Source: Eggerthella lenta DSM 2243 (GTDB lineage Bacteria > Actinomycetota > Coriobacteriia > Coriobacteriales > Eggerthellaceae). From it: 64,000 bases of DNA. The position numbers and the translations under genes were made by a program. The notes under the pieces are model-generated. The model was not told the DNA's origin. It worked only from the letters and a program-made list of their open reading frames with translations, and searched no databases. This document shows, one piece after another, positions 27,784-43,937 of this stretch. The number at the start of each line of letters is the position of its first letter. Position 1 is the first letter of the stretch. The stretch is taken from contig NC_013204.1 of the NCBI RefSeq assembly GCF_000024265.1, forward strand, positions 2,034,180 through 2,098,179, read 5' to 3'.

Positions 27784-27792
27784 CCCCCCCCC
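27784..27792 (-). repeat. Poly-G(9) tract acting as tadB ribosome site
   Basis: Nine C on the plus strand, nine G on the minus strand, running from the last base of the tadA TAG into the tadB leader. Homopolymers of this length are prone to slippage, and a length change would alter the spacing to the tadB ATG. Confidence 0.85.
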
Positions 27793-34536: not shown

Positions 34537-37500
34537 TTATTGGCGCATCGCCACCGTGAAGGTCGGAGTCACCGTGAAGGTTGCCCGATCCTCCCAGCCC
34601 GCATCTCCCAGCCTACCGAACAAGCCGACGGAGGGGCTTGAGGAGTTCCCCTCGATGACCCCTTGTCCCGCCGCGTTGAAAGGGTAGTACACGATATCGG
34701 TCGCAGGGGCGCCTTGCGACACCGCTGGCAACCAACCTGCGAACGCCCCACCCGCGACATCGCCCATGCCCAGCATGAGCGAGCGGTTCGCCGTCAGATC
34801 CTCTTGGCGACTCACCAAACTCGCATCGGCGACCGACACGCTCGAAACGAACGCTCGAACAGCGGTGGAGGAGTTGTTGCGTATGGCGAACGTCGCCGAC
34901 CCGTTCCCGTCGGTCGCGGGAAGCGGGGCGTTCGCGTCCGCAGCGCCCTTATCGATGGAGAATTGCACCGACGACGGCATGGTCACGGAGATGATCGATC
35001 GACCTGGAAGCAGGGCATGCGACACGAACACGGCCCGACTGCTTCCCTCGTTGACGGCGCCCAGATAGAGGCGGCCGTCCTTCACGGCGGTGACGATCTT
35101 AGAAGTTGGACTGTACGCCGTCTGCCCAAGCTGCTCCCACTGGTCGAGGGACGACAGGTCTTGCCCTCCCACGACCTTCGCCAACGGCACGGAGTAGACG
35201 TCCACAACGTTGACGGGACCCCGCCCCATCACCGCGGATACATAGAGGTTGTCGCCGCTCACCTCCAGGGCGCTGTATTTGCGCAACCCGTAGGTCAGCC
35301 ATGAAAGCTCTTTGTAGATTTCCACCTGGCCCTCTGGGGAGATGACGTACAGGCGAGGAGCAGGGGCTCCTGCAGCCTGATTGCCGAACGCCGCAAGCAG
35401 GTACAGCTTGCCGGCGTGCACGACGGCATCGACGGAGCCTGCAGCCTCCGAAGCATGGGGTAGGTCGAGCTTCGACCATGAGCCCTCCGGCATCAAGCGA
35501 ATCAGATGGGTCGAGCTCTGACCCGTTCCATCGTTGTCGCCGCACGCGATAGCGGGCGCTCCGTCGAACTCGAATAGCTGCGGGGCCAGGATGTAGTCGA
35601 CCGGCAAAGGATCCTCCACCTTCTCGAAGGTCGATCCTCCTGCCCCCTCGGCGAGACGGTACACCTGCGGCCCCTCGCCGTTCCTGCCCAAGGTTGCCAC
35701 CAGCACGTAGAGCGAGTCCGCCACCGAAGCCATAGCGCAGGGGCTTTGGATATAGGTCCTCGTTGACACCTGGGCGACGTCGACCCATGCGTTCGAGGCC
35801 TTGTCGAAACGCTTGAGAAGCGCCTGGTTCATGTCGTCGCCGTTGGTCGCCAGGAAGTAGAGCGAACCTTGGTGGATCGCCAAACTGGCGTTGGTCATGT
35901 ACGTTCCCGAGATCTGGTTCCCCAGCGGAACGAGCCGGTCGCCCTGGTCGCCTTCGCGCGTCTCCATCACGAGAAAGGAGGAATTGCGTCCGCTCCCCTG
36001 TTGGACGAGGGTGTACAATCCTCCGTCGCCGCTGACGGTGCTCACGTCCTGCACATCGCTGCCGAACTGCGTGCTTCCGCTCTCGTCTCCGATCAACGGC
36101 CAGAGATCGTCCTCGGAAGTGACGGGCAGCGACAGATCGATGGTGACTGAATCGGCACCCTCTTCCACGGCGCTCACCACGATGCCGGTGTTGCGCCCGT
36201 CGGAAAGCACGATCGCCCCGTCGGTGATGCCTTGGGTCATGTCGCTTGAGCCGACCGAGGAGCGGAACGTGCCCCCGGCAAGCGATATCTGAGCATCCCT
36301 GATATCCCCCTTGGCATCGCGCACGCCCGTCTCGCCCGGGCGGAAGACGTAGATGTAGTCGTCTTTGCCCCAGTTTCCCCAGTCGCGGTACGCGGGATTC
36401 ACGCGGTACACGATGACGCCCGAACCAGTGATGTTCGAGTCGATTTGACCGTAGTCGCCCTTCTTTCGATATTCCGCGACGAAGTACTCGTTATCCGAAA
36501 AGGGGGATTTAAACATGATGGCCTGCTGCCCGCCCGAACCCAATTCGCTCAGCGTGAACCGGCCTGATTGGCTCTCCTGCTGAATCGTCGTCCATCCGAG
36601 ATCCTGGCGGGTGATGGCCAAGGGTTGGAACAAACCCGTATCGCTCATGATGTCCCAATACCCGACCGGCTTCGATCCGCTAACCTGCTCGTCTTTGCGA
36701 TAATAGTCGTATATGCCCAGCGAGTGTATGAACTCGTGAGTGATCACCTTCGACGAGGTCCCCGCTACGGTCAGCGTGTCGTTGACGTTGACGTTCGCCA
36801 CCTGCTTCGCGGAAGCCCCGCTGCCGACGGACAGGCCATGCCCTCCCAGGTTGAATTTGTGAGGGGACAGCGCGTTTCCGCGGATCGGCGCTTGGGTGCC
36901 TACGTCCGGAATGATCGTCACGTTCTCTATGATCCCGTCACCCGACGGATCGAGATACTTCGGATCGAAGTCCGGGTACTGCTGAGCGAATTTCTCAAGC
37001 GTGTCGTTGAAAAGATTGAAATCGCCGTTGAACACGTCATAGTAGCTTCGGGGGCGGTCGAGCGTGATGCAGGCGACCTTGCCGTTGCCAAGCGATTGGG
37101 GGAAGTAGCTCAGCGTGTCCACCGCCCCTTGCGAGGAAGCGTAGAGGAACCCGCGCATGCTGATGCCGAAGTAGTTCTTGGCGGGAGTGAACTTCGGCTC
37201 AGGGTTGTTGTAGAATTCCTGCAACGCTTGCCACTTCGTCTCCGGCCGATAGGATGCATACGGCGCGTTGAGGCCCGTGTCGCCGTCTCCCGAGGTATCG
37301 CCTTGGAAGCGCACCACCAGGACCAGGTTCGACAGGTTGGGGGTTATCTCGAACGTGGCGCTGCGCGAACCGGTGTAGGCGCCCCTTCCCGCGATGGTGA
37401 CGCTCGCCGTGCCCGCCCGCACGTTGTTCTCGTAGGAAAGCGCGTAGTCTTGCCCGTTCACGAGCGTCCGCGCGCCATCAGCGGTACGCAAAACGACATC

Positions 37501-38607
37501 CGGCTCCAAGGCCTGGTTCGCGTACCGCTGGTCGGGAATAGGGTCGAGCTGCAAGTCGTTCACGTCCACGACCGCCGCCGGGAGAACGCTGTCGATAGCC
37601 TTGGACGCGTTCACCGCGCCCGCGCTTCCCGAAAGCGCTCTCCTGCCGTTATCGGGGTCTTGGATCTCGTCCGCCGTGCCCTCGAGCACCCGTTCGGCTT
37701 CGTCGACCGTCAAATCGGGGCTGGCGGTCATCAGGAGCGCGGCGACGCCTGCCACGATGGGGCTTGCGCCGGACGTTCCCGAAAACCTTCCGTAGGCATC
37801 GGGCGCGTCCGCCAACGTCGTGGCGAGGTCGACGGCGGGAGCGGACAGGTCCTTCTTGTCGTTGTAGTCGGACCACGGCGCGTTTCGACCCGTTTGCTCC
37901 AAGGCCGTCACGCCCACGACCTCGGGGAAGTCGGACGGATACCCGTACTCCGTCTTCGCGTTCCCCGACCCGTCGCCGTCGCCTCCGGCGGCCACCGTCA
38001 TCACACCCTCGGCGCGCAAGTCCTGAATGGCCCGATGCAGGGCGGGATCGCCCTCCTCCCCTGCTCCCGGATAGGAGATGAAGGACATGTTCGCAACGCG
38101 AAGGTTGAAGTCGTTGCCCTTGGGCCGCTCGGTTCTGACGAGGTTCGCGACATAGGAGATGCCCTTGAGCACGGTGGCGGTGTCGGGACTCCCGATGAGC
38201 GGGTTGTGCACCTTGACGGGAAGCAGGCGGGCGTTGAAACCCGTTCCGGCTATGCCTTTGCCGTTACCCGACTGAGCGCCCACCAAACCCGCGACCGCCG
38301 TGCCGTGCCCGTTCGCATCCTGATCTTTCGCCTCGAAGTCCTTCAAAGGCTTTCGGCTAGCCGCATCGTAGGCAAGGTCCGTGAGCAGCGTGCCCGCCAG
38401 GTCCTCGTGATCGAGCCGGCATCCGCTGTCGAACACCGCGACCGTCACGTCGGAGCCGCCCGCAACGCGATTCCAGGCGTTCAGGACGTCCGCGCCCTTC
38501 ATGGTTCCGAACTCGCCGCCATACAAGTAATACTGCTCTTCCTGAGAAGCGCGGGGGTCGTCGGGAACGTCGACCCCCGCGGCAAGGTCGCCCGCGTACC
38601 GGTACAC
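34537..38607 (-). CDS. Giant subtilisin-metalloprotease protein, body (cut from its prepro region by a stop codon)
   Basis: 1356 codons in the same frame as the prepro fragment upstream, separated only by TAG 38617-38619. Residues 50-310 form an S8 domain: Asp60 (VAVFDSGC), His101 (DANGHGTAVAG) and Ser279 (GTSGASP). The usual oxyanion Asn after AAG is Gly209. An Ig-like domain follows (about 345-425). Residues 430-800 form an M6-like metalloprotease with H624-E-F-I-H628-S-L-G-I-Y-D634 and Met-turn WDIMS. Then comes a repeat-rich region resembling a propeller, and a C-terminal domain shared with the small secreted protein at 39274. As it stands it lacks a signal peptide; the only nearby start is GTG 38607. 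Confidence 0.82.
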   Translation of the reverse strand: MYRYAGDLAAGVDVPDDPRASQEEQYYLYGGEFGTMKGADVLNAWNRVAGGSDVTVAVFDSGCRLDHEDLAGTLLTDLAYDAASRKPLKDFEAKDQDANGHGTAVAGLVGAQSGNGKGIAGTGFNARLLPVKVHNPLIGSPDTATVLKGISYVANLVRTERPKGNDFNLRVANMSFISYPGAGEEGDPALHRAIQDLRAEGVMTVAAGGDGDGSGNAKTEYGYPSDFPEVVGVTALEQTGRNAPWSDYNDKKDLSAPAVDLATTLADAPDAYGRFSGTSGASPIVAGVAALLMTASPDLTVDEAERVLEGTADEIQDPDNGRRALSGSAGAVNASKAIDSVLPAAVVDVNDLQLDPIPDQRYANQALEPDVVLRTADGARTLVNGQDYALSYENNVRAGTASVTIAGRGAYTGSRSATFEITPNLSNLVLVVRFQGDTSGDGDTGLNAPYASYRPETKWQALQEFYNNPEPKFTPAKNYFGISMRGFLYASSQGAVDTLSYFPQSLGNGKVACITLDRPRSYYDVFNGDFNLFNDTLEKFAQQYPDFDPKYLDPSGDGIIENVTIIPDVGTQAPIRGNALSPHKFNLGGHGLSVGSGASAKQVANVNVNDTLTVAGTSSKVITHEFIHSLGIYDYYRKDEQVSGSKPVGYWDIMSDTGLFQPLAITRQDLGWTTIQQESQSGRFTLSELGSGGQQAIMFKSPFSDNEYFVAEYRKKGDYGQIDSNITGSGVIVYRVNPAYRDWGNWGKDDYIYVFRPGETGVRDAKGDIRDAQISLAGGTFRSSVGSSDMTQGITDGAIVLSDGRNTGIVVSAVEEGADSVTIDLSLPVTSEDDLWPLIGDESGSTQFGSDVQDVSTVSGDGGLYTLVQQGSGRNSSFLVMETREGDQGDRLVPLGNQISGTYMTNASLAIHQGSLYFLATNGDDMNQALLKRFDKASNAWVDVAQVSTRTYIQSPCAMASVADSLYVLVATLGRNGEGPQVYRLAEGAGGSTFEKVEDPLPVDYILAPQLFEFDGAPAIACGDNDGTGQSSTHLIRLMPEGSWSKLDLPHASEAAGSVDAVVHAGKLYLLAAFGNQAAGAPAPRLYVISPEGQVEIYKELSWLTYGLRKYSALEVSGDNLYVSAVMGRGPVNVVDVYSVPLAKVVGGQDLSSLDQWEQLGQTAYSPTSKIVTAVKDGRLYLGAVNEGSSRAVFVSHALLPGRSIISVTMPSSVQFSIDKGAADANAPLPATDGNGSATFAIRNNSSTAVRAFVSSVSVADASLVSRQEDLTANRSLMLGMGDVAGGAFAGWLPAVSQGAPATDIVYYPFNAAGQGVIEGNSSSPSVGLFGRLGDAGWEDRATFTVTPTFTVAMRQ

Positions 38608-38616
38608 GTGATTCGG

Positions 38617-39192
38617 CTACACGGCGATAATGCCGGGCTGGTCGCGCAACGTTTCGGAGACCGCTTGCGGCGTTTTACCGACCGGTATGGCGGCGCGCAC
38701 GATCGTTCCCGTGGTCCCCGAAGCTTCCACGATGATTTCCTGGGGGACGACCCCTTGCGCGCGCAAAGTAGCCGACGTCGCATCGGGCAGATCGGAAAGA
38801 GAGGCCGCCGATGCCGCGACATCGGCGCATTCGACGAGGATGTTCTGAGCGGGGTCGTCCTGCACGGCAGGCGCGGGGGCATCTTCCTGCGCCGCCGGTT
38901 CGGAAGGCTCGGATGGGACCGCGTCCTGCGACGCGCTCTGGGACGACCCGGATCCGTCGAGGGCCGCGTCGGGACCCGTTTCCGTTGCCTCCGCAGCGTC
39001 GGTCGATGCGAGCCGATCCGCCGACGCCGATCCTTCGGCATCGACCTGGGCTGCGCTCGCCTCGGCGGAAGACGCGGCCTGGCTCGCCGATGCGGGCAAT
39101 CCCGACACCGCCATAAGCAGCGCCAGAGCCACAGCGAATGCGAACCGCAACGTGCGCACGCCCTTTTTATCCATTCTTCTCGAACCGTTCAT
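38617..39192 (-). CDS. Signal peptide and propeptide fragment of the giant protease
   Basis: 191 residues: a basic N-terminus, a signal helix (about 15-37), a long Ala/Ser/Glu/Asp-rich linker and an I9-like propeptide ending DQPGIIAV, then TAG. In intact subtilases the propeptide ends with a pattern like V-E/Q-P-N; here the stop replaces the E/Q codon and PNHVYRYA follows in frame. One substitution from CAG or GAG would therefore explain it. Alone this fragment would be exported without a protease. Confidence 0.8.
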   Translation of the reverse strand: MNGSRRMDKKGVRTLRFAFAVALALLMAVSGLPASASQAASSAEASAAQVDAEGSASADRLASTDAAEATETGPDAALDGSGSSQSASQDAVPSEPSEPAAQEDAPAPAVQDDPAQNILVECADVAASAASLSDLPDATSATLRAQGVVPQEIIVEASGTTGTIVRAAIPVGKTPQAVSETLRDQPGIIAV

Positions 39193-39932: not shown

Positions 39933-40367
39933 TCAGCGTCTCATGCACATGCCCGTCTTGCGGGCTTGGAGGACTCTCTTGCATCCGGCGAGCGCCAGGG
40001 CAGCGAGGGCGCACAGCACGGCCGATAGCAGCGCGACCGCAGCCGACACGGGAAAGCTATCACCGGTCTTGGTCAGCGGCTTGGCTTGCACGCCCCACTT
40101 CCCCACGGTCTCGCCCATCGGCTTCGACACAACCCCTTGCTCCTGCGGAGGATCAAAAGAGGGGGGGGGTGGAGGAGGATCAGGGTATGGGGGCGGAGGA
40201 GAAGGCGCTACCAGCACGCGCAGCGGCATGTCCAGGTCCGTTCCGCCCCCTTCGGCGGCCTCGGCAACCGAAGGGCACGCAACCGCCATTGTCAGCAGGC
40301 CGACGATGAGGCATGGCGCGAACCATGCGCGATGCCCCCATCGACCGTCCTCTGTTACTCGCATCAT
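39933..40367 (-). CDS. Proline-rich surface protein with LTKTG-type sorting signal
   Basis: 144 residues from ATG 40367 (GGGGTGAG upstream, four bases after the preceding stop). Signal peptide, a short proline-rich stalk, then PLTKTGDS, a hydrophobic helix and a basic tail, the layout of a sortase substrate with Thr in place of the usual Pro of LPxTG. The proline stretch is encoded by nine consecutive C on the minus strand. No sortase gene lies in the window. Confidence 0.75.
   Translation of the reverse strand: MMRVTEDGRWGHRAWFAPCLIVGLLTMAVACPSVAEAAEGGGTDLDMPLRVLVAPSPPPPYPDPPPPPPSFDPPQEQGVVSKPMGETVGKWGVQAKPLTKTGDSFPVSAAVALLSAVLCALAALALAGCKRVLQARKTGMCMRR
40161..40169 (-). repeat. Poly-C(9) tract inside the proline-rich protein
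   Basis: Nine G on the plus strand encode consecutive Pro codons on the minus strand. At this length the gene is in frame. A one-base change would remove the sorting signal. Confidence 0.85.
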
Positions 40368-40371
40368 CTTC

Positions 40372-41016
40372 TCACCCCTTAACATGAAGCACCAACTCGG
40401 CCGCGACACGCCCGATAGGGGTGTTGTCCGAGAGCCTGAACGTCTCTATCGTCGCCACGGCGGGATAGTCTCCCGGCGGCAGATCCTCGCTCAACGGAGC
40501 GGACTCTATGTACTGGCCGGGGTCGAGGTACCCGGATCGATACACCTCGCGTCCGTCCTCCTCGAGATTGATCGCGACCGTGAACCGGTTGTTGTTGATC
40601 TCAAGATTCTCTATGGTGAGGTTCCCCGGCGCGGTGCCCGTCTCGAACTCCGGAGCCGCGTTGATCGAAAAGCTCACCTGCGCCTCCTCCGCGATCTTGT
40701 CAAGATCGGCGCTTGCTCCGGTGAGGGTTCCCACCTTCACGTTCGGATCCGGCTGAAGCGCCCCCTCGTCCTTGTGGAAGAATGCCACATAGGCGAGGAA
40801 ACACGCGCACGCGACCAAAACGATGCATACGCCCGCCACGAAGAACCGAATCGGCTTGATCTTTTTCGGGCCGCCGCCTTGATCCGAACCGACGGGATGA
40901 GCCTGAGGATGAGCCTGATCCCGATCCGGCGCGCACAGGGCGGCATCATCCCCGAAATGGAACCTCGTGGGCGCTTCGGGAGGCTGCACCAGGCTATAGC
41001 GTTTCTTGTCGTCCAT
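40372..41016 (-). CDS. Single-pass membrane protein of the protease operon
   Basis: 214 residues. A cytosolic N-terminus of about 55 residues is followed by one membrane helix (about 55-77) and an extracytoplasmic beta-sandwich-like domain (NLTIENLEINNNRFTVAINL). I do not recognise a family. It lies six bases after the regulator gene and four before the sorting-signal gene, so all are co-transcribed. Confidence 0.75.
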   Translation of the reverse strand: MDDKKRYSLVQPPEAPTRFHFGDDAALCAPDRDQAHPQAHPVGSDQGGGPKKIKPIRFFVAGVCIVLVACACFLAYVAFFHKDEGALQPDPNVKVGTLTGASADLDKIAEEAQVSFSINAAPEFETGTAPGNLTIENLEINNNRFTVAINLEEDGREVYRSGYLDPGQYIESAPLSEDLPPGDYPAVATIETFRLSDNTPIGRVAAELVLHVKG

Positions 41017-41022
41017 ATCCGC

Positions 41023-41443
41023 TCACATGTAACGGGGGTCTTCATCGTGGACAAGCGATTCCTTGCCCACTTCGAATCGATATAAGAGATTGATGGCATC
41101 GCGCACCGCTTGGCTTTGGTTATGGGTGAAGCTGCTCTTCATAAGATCCGAATAACAGTTGCGCGCCTGGCATATCTCATCAAGGCAGGCGATAGCCTCG
41201 GGATCGAGCATGAAGGTCTTTCTCACACTGAGGCGCCGCGCTTTATGCCCGTTGCAGTGAGACGCCCCCCCCCCGATCGACATCCTTCTGCGAGGCGCAT
41301 CCGGACGCGAGAGCCTGAAGGGATGCGGCGCCCTCGTCGGAATAGGCCCTTTCGGCGCGTTTCAGATCGGAAAAGGAAACGACATGCACGGAAGCAGAAG
41401 ATGTTCCAAGCTGATCGGGGATCCTTCTTTGTGAGTCTCGCAT
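41023..41443 (-). pseudogene. Ribbon-helix-helix-type regulator, out of frame at a G(10) tract (probably phase-variable)
   Basis: ATG 41443 has a near-perfect ribosome site (GAGAGGAGG, seven bases upstream). Its frame reads to the G-tract at 41265-41274 and then hits TAA 19 bases after the tract. The frame continuing past the tract encodes SVRKTFMLDPEAIACLDEI and NQSQAVRDAINLLYRF, like a CopG/Arc-type fold. With nine (or twelve) G the halves join into a 139-residue protein. With ten, only an internal ATG at 41283 could express the C-terminal half (86 codons), and its AGAAGG is too close to work well. It leads the protease operon and faces the repeat-protein operon. Confidence 0.75.
41265..41274 (-). 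repeat. Poly-G(10) slippage tract in the regulator gene
   Basis: Ten C on the plus strand, within the coding region. It is the exact point where the two open frames of the regulator fall out of register by one base. Confidence 0.9.
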
Positions 41444-41594
41444 CCTGTATCCTCCTCTCTCCGATAGTCTGCGTTGCGCATTCGCCACCGATAGGTTTCC
41501 CCCTTCGCAAGGAAAAACATCGGTGCTGAGCTAAAACGATAGCGCATGATCGCCCGCCGCAAAAGACACGCCCGCCATATACTACCAATTTACT

Positions 41595-41643
41595 GTCAAA
41601 TTGACCCAAAAGTATGAACACTCCGCTTTCGAGTATGAACACT
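41595..41643. promoter_or_regulatory. Candidate operator in the divergent region
   Basis: Two exact copies of AGTATGAACACT (41611-41622 and 41632-41643) start 21 bp apart, about two helical turns. They are preceded by the near-palindrome GTCAAATTGAC (41595-41605). The whole 341-base region 41444-41784 is AT-rich and holds both divergent promoters. Direct repeats at this spacing suit a ribbon-helix-helix regulator such as the adjacent one. Confidence 0.55.
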
Positions 41644-41784: not shown

Positions 41785-43350
41785 ATGGAATCGTTCAACA
41801 TCCATAAGGAACGCCAGGTGCGCGAAGGCATCGCCCATGGTTTGATGTCCGATCGGGTGATGCTGTACGCTTCACCCGACTTCGATCATCTCCAGATGCA
41901 GGAAATCAGATGGGCGCTCGAGGAGGGGCTGGATAGCGAGCTCGTCTCCCTTTTCGCCGACCCCCGCATAGCTTGGGTTTCAATGCACTCGATCCGCTCT
42001 GCGGCTGCGCAAGGTCTTTCTTCGGAGCAGGTGAGACTTTTATCGCAACCCGCATTGTCCCTCATGCAAATCCAGGAGATCGTCCAGGGTTTTGAAAAAG
42101 GGCTCTCCCTCGAGCAGGCTGCCGTGTATGCGAGACCGGAAATCGACTGGGAAACAATGCGGCGGATCCGCGAGGCGTTCGAGTCCGGCTTCGATGAGGA
42201 TCAAGCCCGCCTGTACGCCAGCCCCTCTTTCAACGAGGCCCAAGCCGAACAAATACACAAGGGTTTTTCCGCCGGCCTTGCTCTTGGCCAAGTGAATTCA
42301 TACGCCCATCCAAAATACCCTGCCTCCCAGATGGAACAGATACGGTTGGGGCTGGAGCACGGATTGCCCGAAGCGAGCGTGAACGCATACGCGCAGAACT
42401 CTTTTTCCGCCGATCAAATGGAGCAGATCAGGCTGGGGATGGAACATGGGCTGTCCCTTGCCCAGATTTCCGCATACGCGCAAGCCGCCTACCCCTGGAG
42501 CCAGATGGCGCTTATGCGATCGGGGTTGGAAAAGGGTTTCAACGCGGATCAATTGAGCTTGCTTTCCTCGCCGGATTTCGATTTCTGGCAGCTGGGGACG
42601 ATATTGAGGGGGTTGGAGTCGGGCTTGTCTGTCGAACAGGTCAAAACGTATGCTCGCCCTACCTTCGATGCGGGCCAGATGGATCAAATTCTCCTCGGAT
42701 TGCAGGAGGGCCTTGCGAACGACGAGCTGTCCCTGTACGCTTCAAGCTCGTTCGACGCCGCCCAAATGGCGCAAATTCGAAAAGGGCTGGGCGAGAACAT
42801 CCCCCTCGACCATATCCGGGTTTTTGCAAACCCTCATTTCGAAACCAAGCAAATGGAGCAGATACTCCGGGGCTTCGAGCAGAGATTGTCCCTCGACGAA
42901 GTCCTCACCTATGCCCTTCCCGATTTGACCTGGTACGAAATGAAAAAGCAACGAAGGAGCCTGGGCAACGGCAAGGCGCGCAAAGGCGCGCACGCGCCAA
43001 ACGAAACCGACGACCAACCCGACGAAAGAATGTTCGCCTTCTCCTACACTAAAACGTATTCGAAGCGCTTCTACGTATACGCGGACAGCAGAGAGGCAGC
43101 CCAGAAGTTCATCGAGGACAGGATCGAATCCGCTGGGGGGATTCCCGTGGAGGATCTCGAGCTCGCCGAGGCTGCGGTCACCTACGATCAGAGCCTTACC
43201 GAGAATCTTTACGAGCATCCAACCGCCATCATGGAGAAGGACATCTACAGACTGCCTTCGAGCAATGCGCTCGCAAGCGCCAGGCAAGCAGGCGGAGCGG
43301 GCATTGCCAGCAAGCTGTTTAAGAGATCGGGCCAGCAAAATCGAGCATGA
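41785..43350 (+). CDS. Protein with thirteen 29-residue helical repeats
   Basis: 521 residues without signal or membrane segments. Residues 10-386 are thirteen tandem units of 29 residues with consensus near EQIRxGLExGLSxEQVxxYAxPxFDxxQM, probably an alpha-solenoid. A C-terminal domain (FSYTKTYSKRFYVYADSREAAQKFIEDRIES) faintly resembles the DpnD/PcfM family. Such repeats are known in mobile and accessory genes of gut bacteria, without assigned function. It is the first gene of the plus-strand operon, and its stop overlaps the next ATG by four bases. Confidence 0.82.
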   Translation: MESFNIHKERQVREGIAHGLMSDRVMLYASPDFDHLQMQEIRWALEEGLDSELVSLFADPRIAWVSMHSIRSAAAQGLSSEQVRLLSQPALSLMQIQEIVQGFEKGLSLEQAAVYARPEIDWETMRRIREAFESGFDEDQARLYASPSFNEAQAEQIHKGFSAGLALGQVNSYAHPKYPASQMEQIRLGLEHGLPEASVNAYAQNSFSADQMEQIRLGMEHGLSLAQISAYAQAAYPWSQMALMRSGLEKGFNADQLSLLSSPDFDFWQLGTILRGLESGLSVEQVKTYARPTFDAGQMDQILLGLQEGLANDELSLYASSSFDAAQMAQIRKGLGENIPLDHIRVFANPHFETKQMEQILRGFEQRLSLDEVLTYALPDLTWYEMKKQRRSLGNGKARKGAHAPNETDDQPDERMFAFSYTKTYSKRFYVYADSREAAQKFIEDRIESAGGIPVEDLELAEAAVTYDQSLTENLYEHPTAIMEKDIYRLPSSNALASARQAGGAGIASKLFKRSGQQNRA

Positions 43351-43919
43351 GACGACGAGAAGACAACAGCCGCTTTGAAGGGGAAGGCAGAACGCCTCGC
43401 CCGCATTCGACCCGCCGTGCGCGCACGATAGGGCGGGTGCTGCTCGCAGCACTCCTTCTGGCGGCGATCGCGTACGCCAGCAACGTCCTGCTCGCCCCTC
43501 GCGGCAATGAGGCGCCCTCCACCAAGAATCGAGAAAAACCATCCGCCGAGCAGGCGGAACAGGCGACGGAAAAGCAGCTGGGCGTCGTGTTCGAGAAACA
43601 GGAAGGCGACAGCACCGATGAGACCATCGGATTGTCGGACACGGAAGCCCTCAGCGCGCTCACCGATCCGCAATGGGGTTCAGGGCCGTTTTCAACAGCG
43701 GTCATCGCCCGCGCGATAGCGGAAGGCTATCAGATCGACGCGGGGAAGAGCGGTGTCGTTCGTAGCAGCATCCAAGAAGATCAGGGAGGAAATCTTGTAT
43801 ATGGAGACATACGCGTTGTCGAGCAAGGAGGAAACAAGCTGGGCACGCTGTACTTTTCGTTTGACAAGGAGGCGTCTGACTTGCTCTTCACGAACAATCC
43901 TCCAAACGACATGCACTGA
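43347..43919 (+). CDS. Membrane-anchored protein of unknown function
   Basis: 190 residues: an Arg-rich N-terminus, one membrane helix (about 28-47), an acidic linker and a C-terminal extracytoplasmic domain with no motif I recognise. It is coupled to the repeat-protein gene (ATGA) and followed by a 13-C tract. Confidence 0.72.
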   Translation: MRRREDNSRFEGEGRTPRPHSTRRARTIGRVLLAALLLAAIAYASNVLLAPRGNEAPSTKNREKPSAEQAEQATEKQLGVVFEKQEGDSTDETIGLSDTEALSALTDPQWGSGPFSTAVIARAIAEGYQIDAGKSGVVRSSIQEDQGGNLVYGDIRVVEQGGNKLGTLYFSFDKEASDLLFTNNPPNDMH

Positions 43920-43924
43920 CGACG

Positions 43925-43937
43925 CCCCCCCCCCCCC
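43925..43937 (+). repeat. Poly-C(13) tract upstream of the CpaE-like gene
   Basis: Thirteen C, starting five bases after the stop of the membrane protein and ending 30 bases before the ATG of the CpaE-like gene. It is the longest homopolymer I noticed in the window and intergenic, so length changes would alter spacing rather than reading frame. Confidence 0.92.

Follow-up and report, generated by a model that had tools for sequence, protein, structure and literature searches.

A tract of ten guanines at the junction of two reading frames: a candidate slippage site in a small putative regulator gene of Eggerthella lenta

The question raised by this locus is whether a run of ten G residues, lying where two reading frames overlap at the head of a group of surface-type protein genes, is a slippage site that sets the expression of a small regulator. 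We examined the window, that is, the whole stretch of 64,000 nucleotides (positions 2034180-2098179 of a single contig of 3,632,260 bases), and extended the comparison to other genomes. Our best explanation is that the run serves as a slipped-strand contingency tract within the 5' portion of a small regulator gene at the head of a surface-protein operon, a reading to which we give about an even chance. The elements on which it turns are the following:

41265..41274, minus strand: tract of ten G residues, candidate slippage site (sequence and pattern search).
41243..41443, minus strand: upstream frame, with ATG 41443 and 56 codons followed by the tract, out of the domain frame and ending at the stop at 41243 (ORF list and ribosome-site energy; coding statistics weak).
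41444..41463, minus strand: ribosome site of ATG 41443, GGAGAGAGGAGGATACAGG (sequence, spacing count and pairing energy).
41023..41283, minus strand: 86-codon frame with a conserved C-terminal domain, ribbon-helix-helix-like, and a start of its own, ATG 41283, whose ribosome site is poor (ORFs and homology searches).
41298..41300, minus strand: third-frame ATG 41300, close upstream of the tract, with a poor ribosome site (pairing energy).

Both the sequence itself and a pattern search of the window give exactly ten G residues on the minus strand at 41265-41274, within the overlap of the two frames. The preliminary description had placed the meeting of the frames there and had calculated that a change in tract length would fuse them; the placement is borne out and the frame arithmetic is correct, as the joined reading comprises 139 residues without an internal stop. 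The domain frame beginning at ATG 41283 passes through the ten Gs in frame, the tract forming its codons 4-7. The tract is so placed that its length would alter translation: ATGs precede it in all three frames, 41443 with a strong ribosome site and 41283 and 41300 with weak ones, and each length class brings a different one of them into phase with the domain. No -10-like box lies within 18 nt of the tract, which falls in the coding class. Across the window, overlapping matches to G8 number 13, against 2.28 in shuffled sequences. A run of nine Gs (27784-27792) directly follows the stop of the T2SSE (CpaF-like) gene, and a run of 13 Cs (43925-43937) lies between the stop of ORF 43347-43919 and ATG 43968, with no partner tract in the compared Eggerthella loci.

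The starts available to the domain differ greatly in predicted strength. ATG 41443 is preceded at 7 nt by AGGAGG, and its predicted pairing to the 16S tail (-11.7 kcal/mol) is equalled by one of 600 sampled ATGs (2021 in the window), so the earlier ranking of its ribosome site above all others nearby stands. AGGAGG 4-9 nt before an ATG occurs at nine ATGs in the window, whereas 30 simulated sequences averaged 1.9. GTG 41488 lies in the same frame, with a predicted pairing of -11.0 kcal/mol, and from this codon to the stop at 41243 the frame would encode 81 aa. The predicted pairing is -3.3 kcal/mol at ATG 41283, a value that 37% of ATGs reach and where GAAGG abuts the ATG directly, and -2.5 kcal/mol at ATG 41300. 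The preliminary description had considered the gene switched off at ten Gs, which is right for the frame of ATG 41443, with its stop at 41243, but is not secure for the domain frame, which has the weak ATG 41283 in frame. 'Switched off' is thus too strong; because 41283 is the sole start in the phase of the domain at ten Gs, the reference state is better described as OFF or LOW, and it may be weakly ON.

The 56 upstream codons themselves have weak coding statistics. Their score of -0.04 bits per codon is not exceeded by 9.6% of in-frame training segments and is reached by 33% of out-of-frame segments, the training set being 41 long ORFs that were chosen by GC3 and may be impure; one opposite-strand frame outscores the upstream frame by the same measure. 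A search with the joined reading returned its own two halves, one match at E 0.013 elsewhere in the same genome and one at E 0.28, with internal stops, in genome G002, and gave no convincing Eggerthella homologue of the upstream frame.

From these features we propose a model in which translation would begin mainly at ATG 41443, with its near-perfect ribosome site, and in which one of the three tract-length classes would carry the 41443 frame into the domain to give a 139-residue protein. At ten Gs the only way to read the domain, as 86 residues, would be from the weak start at ATG 41283, and replication slippage would generate rare cells with a high level of the regulator. We infer that the tract varies in length and that the product is a DNA-binding protein controlling its own or the divergent operon.

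How far the domain deserves the name of a regulator depends on its relatives and its fold. Pfam gave no family for the 86-aa protein at E 0.1, the joined reading matched no ribbon-helix-helix family, and the sole NCBIfam match (aCcr1, E 0.18) was far under the cut-off. An AlphaFold2 model built on a five-sequence alignment (mean pLDDT 58.9) has helices at 28-43 and 58-71 and no strand called. The protein resembles ribbon-helix-helix proteins of the CopG/Arc type in its small size, in the helix-helix layout of this low-confidence model and in an SxxVRDAIxLLYRYEV stretch conserved among relatives; it differs from them in having no Pfam match to such a family, although one relative touches PF01402 (RHH) at E 0.022, under the cut-off. 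The label in the preliminary description is therefore not confirmed, and with the identity weak we regard a ribbon-helix-helix regulator as a likely guess. A designed helical-repeat protein, matched at E 0.0013 in a solved-structure profile search, was judged irrelevant, and a PHROGs search returned nothing useful.

A search of Eggerthellaceae with the domain matched 12 of 138 genomes at E 0.05, its own genome included, and by our reading four of the matches are real relatives (L058, L059, L062 and L063; 25-35% identical), which have an SxxVRDAIxLLYRYEV-like stretch in common with the domain. The remaining matches were rejected as partial, as frames with stops or as lying inside long unrelated frames. 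All four relatives consist of the domain unit of 73-87 residues only and do without the N-terminal 56 residues, so these residues would seem unneeded for the fold. In three of the four, ribosome sites were recognized by eye directly before this unit; in the closest relative, L059 (36% identical), the start shares an alignment column with ATG 41283, a shared lysine following the two ATGs at 21 and 25 residues. The preliminary description had named homologues aligning only to the 86-codon frame, with its own conserved start, as the observation that would speak against it, and this is in part what was found, both in the extent of the relatives and in the start column of L059. Beyond these relatives, the domain was not found at E 0.001 in the three other Eggerthella genomes, which thus offer no orthologous tract for comparison, and a class-wide profile search at E 0.01 matched 5 of 396 genomes, of which three had contributed to the profile. 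A search of viral contigs matched three stretches, none a relative, and a search of genome contigs with a two-row alignment matched 82 stretches, none confirmed as a relative.

The surroundings of the locus include Tad-pilus genes (T2SSF, T2SSE, RcpC and prepilin peptidase) and an operon of small surface-type proteins, the last gene of which encodes an S8 plus M6 protease. For one protein of this genome, the nearest named relatives are from Gordonibacter and Eggerthella sinensis. Three features bear on the role of the putative regulator:

40372..41016, minus strand: gene that follows in the operon, encoding 214 aa and judged by eye to belong to a membrane-anchored surface protein family (ORFs and family search).
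34537..39192, minus strand: last gene of the operon, encoding an S8 subtilase plus M6 protease and interrupted at 38617-38619 by an in-frame TAG (ORFs and domain search).
41611..41643, minus strand: tandem direct repeat, two copies of AGTGTTCATACT 21 nt apart, possible operator (repeat and pattern searches; the function is inferred).

The gene was earlier said to lead a surface-protease operon. We too place it at the head of a surface-protein operon, but the protease itself is interrupted, its frame 34537-38607 and the upstream 191-aa frame 38617-39192 constituting one frame with the TAG between them; because of this split, this strain may have lost part of the operon's function. The putative regulator is linked to the operon by its position only. 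Relatives of the 214-aa protein were found in 26 of 137 Eggerthellaceae genomes, G014 having 22 matches and G003 having 14; an operon-wide pairing of this protein with the domain was considered and dropped, the domain profile having found only its own locus among 31 loci surrounding relatives of the 214-aa protein. Within the same operon, a run of nine Cs on the coding strand (40161-40169) falls in the proline-rich part of a 158-aa ORF (39933-40409). The AGTGTTCATACT pair lies 170-200 nt upstream of ATG 41443 and, with up to three mismatches allowed, is unique to this locus in four Eggerthella genomes. Such uniqueness would be expected of a local operator and favours the slippage reading, and a local regulator would be the natural candidate to bind the repeat. 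A scan for promoter consensus sequences gave one site against 0.7 expected.

We then placed the tract among those of the genus. In a survey limited to G or C runs of at least ten and to one genome per species, in which shorter orthologous tracts are invisible, the four Eggerthella genomes contain 30 (the genome of the window), 50, 33 and 34 runs. For the genome of the window, about 7 would be expected from the dinucleotides of the window, and the excess is larger for runs of at least 12 (12 against about 0.5); runs of exactly ten, the shortest class counted, are mildly unusual (13 against about 5, or about 2.5-fold). G12 is present in 61 of 137 genomes of the family, at contig ends of fragmented assemblies in some cases. 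Of the 147 tracts, 133 were compared (28/30, 50/50, 21/33 and 34/34). Under a strict rule, by which the alignment spans the tract with an offset of at most 10, there are 18 cross-species pairs in 13 groups, and tract length differs in 12 of the 18; under a loose rule, which admits alignments ending within 150 nt of the tract and offsets of up to 40 nt, length differs in 29 of 39 pairs (15 groups), the pairs under both rules not being independent of one another. L042 was left out of the group L042/L084/L134 owing to its alignment in the opposite orientation. Lengths are equal in 6 of the 18 strict pairs, two of which show 97.6-98.7% identity across 1.8 kb. The blocks around L009/L079 and L050/L114 are 98.7% identical over 1.8 kb, other flanks in the two species being mostly 67-91% identical; either recent transfer or strong conservation would account for such near-identical blocks.

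Some tracts of the genus may act on transcription. A -10-like box directly follows the tract at 21 of 266 strand-sides, against 2.1 expected, with orthologues counted repeatedly, and few of these boxes have a convincing -35 box before them at the usual distance. In L009/L079/L154, L081/L131/L153 and others, the G tract is directly followed by boxes such as TATACT or TATAAT, an arrangement that could make them transcriptional tracts.

Other tracts lie inside genes. A GGDEF/EAL gene has the same N-terminus running into the tract in several genomes: with G14 it is in frame in the genome of the window (L041 1090-1103; G000:C1:301589-301602), with G12 it is out of frame in the sister species G001 and G003 (L077 and L129), and in two Gordonibacter genomes (L209 and L210) G12 and G9 are both in frame. 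Overall, three species carry this gene in frame and two carry it out of frame; a G run of this kind is lacking in the E. sinensis homologue. Three further genes in the genome of the window have a layout like that of the G10 locus, with the domain in another frame. In a GDSL hydrolase (L043 960-970), 45 codons lead into G11, and the hydrophobic N-terminal helix and the catalytic part are in different frames; in a NusG-domain protein (L039 2094-2103) and a bacterial sugar transferase (L045 976-986), open frames of 41 and 6 codons run into G10 and G11, respectively, the true start of each being uncertain. Poly-G slippage in the genus looks real from these comparisons, because of the excess of runs, their shared positions, the differences in length between species and the frame states of the GGDEF/EAL gene, and the G run near the small gene is probably one of many random switches.

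This background has to be set against other accounts of the locus itself. The complete gene could be the 86-codon frame from ATG 41283, in which case the reference would be ON, slippage would turn the gene off, and the upstream frame would be a leader or an accident. The first alignment column shared by ATG 41283 and the ATG of L059, the sites seen by eye before the unit in three of four relatives and the weak coding statistics upstream all agree with this gene model, but it assigns the start to a poor ribosome site and leaves the exceptional one at 41443 without a gene, and we consider it rather unlikely. Slippage also operates in that account, and when it is added to our preferred one, control of the domain by slippage becomes more probable than its absence. 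An ordinary regulator starting at or after the tract, with the tract a chance run of no role in its leader, appears improbable: runs of exactly ten exceed expectation only about 2.5-fold and no orthologous tract was found in the three other Eggerthella genomes, as such a chance run would have it, but starts after the tract cut the presumed first strand and their ribosome sites are poor.

The remaining accounts concern the state of the sequence. A frameshift among several lesions of a dying operon would be in keeping with the in-frame TAG in the protease at the operon end and with the failure to find the domain in all three other Eggerthella genomes. Against such decay, the domain frame is intact, the other operon frames are open, and the lesion would have fallen exactly on the type of tract that varies elsewhere in the genus; we hold it to be distinctly improbable. 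Homopolymers are error-prone in sequencing, so the reference could be miscounted at the tract, but independent genomes vary at many other tracts, though each of them could carry errors, and a sequencing or assembly error is to our mind very improbable as the explanation.

The slipped-strand contingency tract that we prefer may be part of something larger. Tentatively, and as a doubtful rather than a favoured extension, the locus could be a graded switch in a genus-wide poly-G phasome, giving a long form from the strong start, a short form from the weak start or hardly any product; regulators, c-di-GMP enzymes, a NusG-domain antiterminator and a capsule-type sugar transferase would then share slippage, beside capsule inversions. 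Were the tract to switch, cells of one E. lenta clone would differ in their level of a local regulator beside a surface operon. The wider set of poly-G tracts outweighs the single G10 locus in interest. If true, it would mean slippage-based heterogeneity in c-di-GMP signalling, the start of capsule synthesis and antitermination of a drug-metabolising gut species, and such heterogeneity would be relevant to phage work and to strain comparison from single reference genomes.

The slipped-strand mechanism is already known, and for Eggerthella we found no report of it; among the matches listed from the open-licence literature, none described poly-G switching in Eggerthella or Coriobacteriia. Graded expression is known for the lic2A and lic1A genes of Haemophilus influenzae. 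In excerpts of the source, several initiation codons in two frames lie upstream of the repeat in these genes (PMC4019658), and our locus is similar in that starts in more than one frame precede the repeat, so that repeat number could set the level of expression, not just ON or OFF. Going by the same excerpts, it differs from the lic genes in having a G run where they have CAAT tetramers, and here the start codons are read from the sequence, only 41443 being strong. The closest demonstrated precedent is Gardnerella, also an actinobacterium, for which portions of the report describe abundant homopolymer tracts genus-wide, within and upstream of genes, and a tract of 9 versus 10 bp among colonies by Sanger sequencing (PMC11287997); as far as those portions go, variation is demonstrated there among colonies, whereas in Eggerthella it is seen between species and at other tracts. 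A survey of prokaryotic homopolymers describes, in the text available, A and T tracts near the 5' ends of genes (PMC2831843). In E. lenta itself, a preprint, in its available text, describes capsule phase variation by megabase inversions that involves LoaP and LuxR-like regulators (PMC13174815); that text has a single mention of slipped-strand mispairing, in general terms, and its main text does not use the words homopolymer, indel or frameshift. The work draws on 102 E. lenta strain genomes. On the preprint's available account, the capsule inversions resemble the switch proposed here in being stochastic surface switching in the same species, and differ from it in proceeding by recombination.
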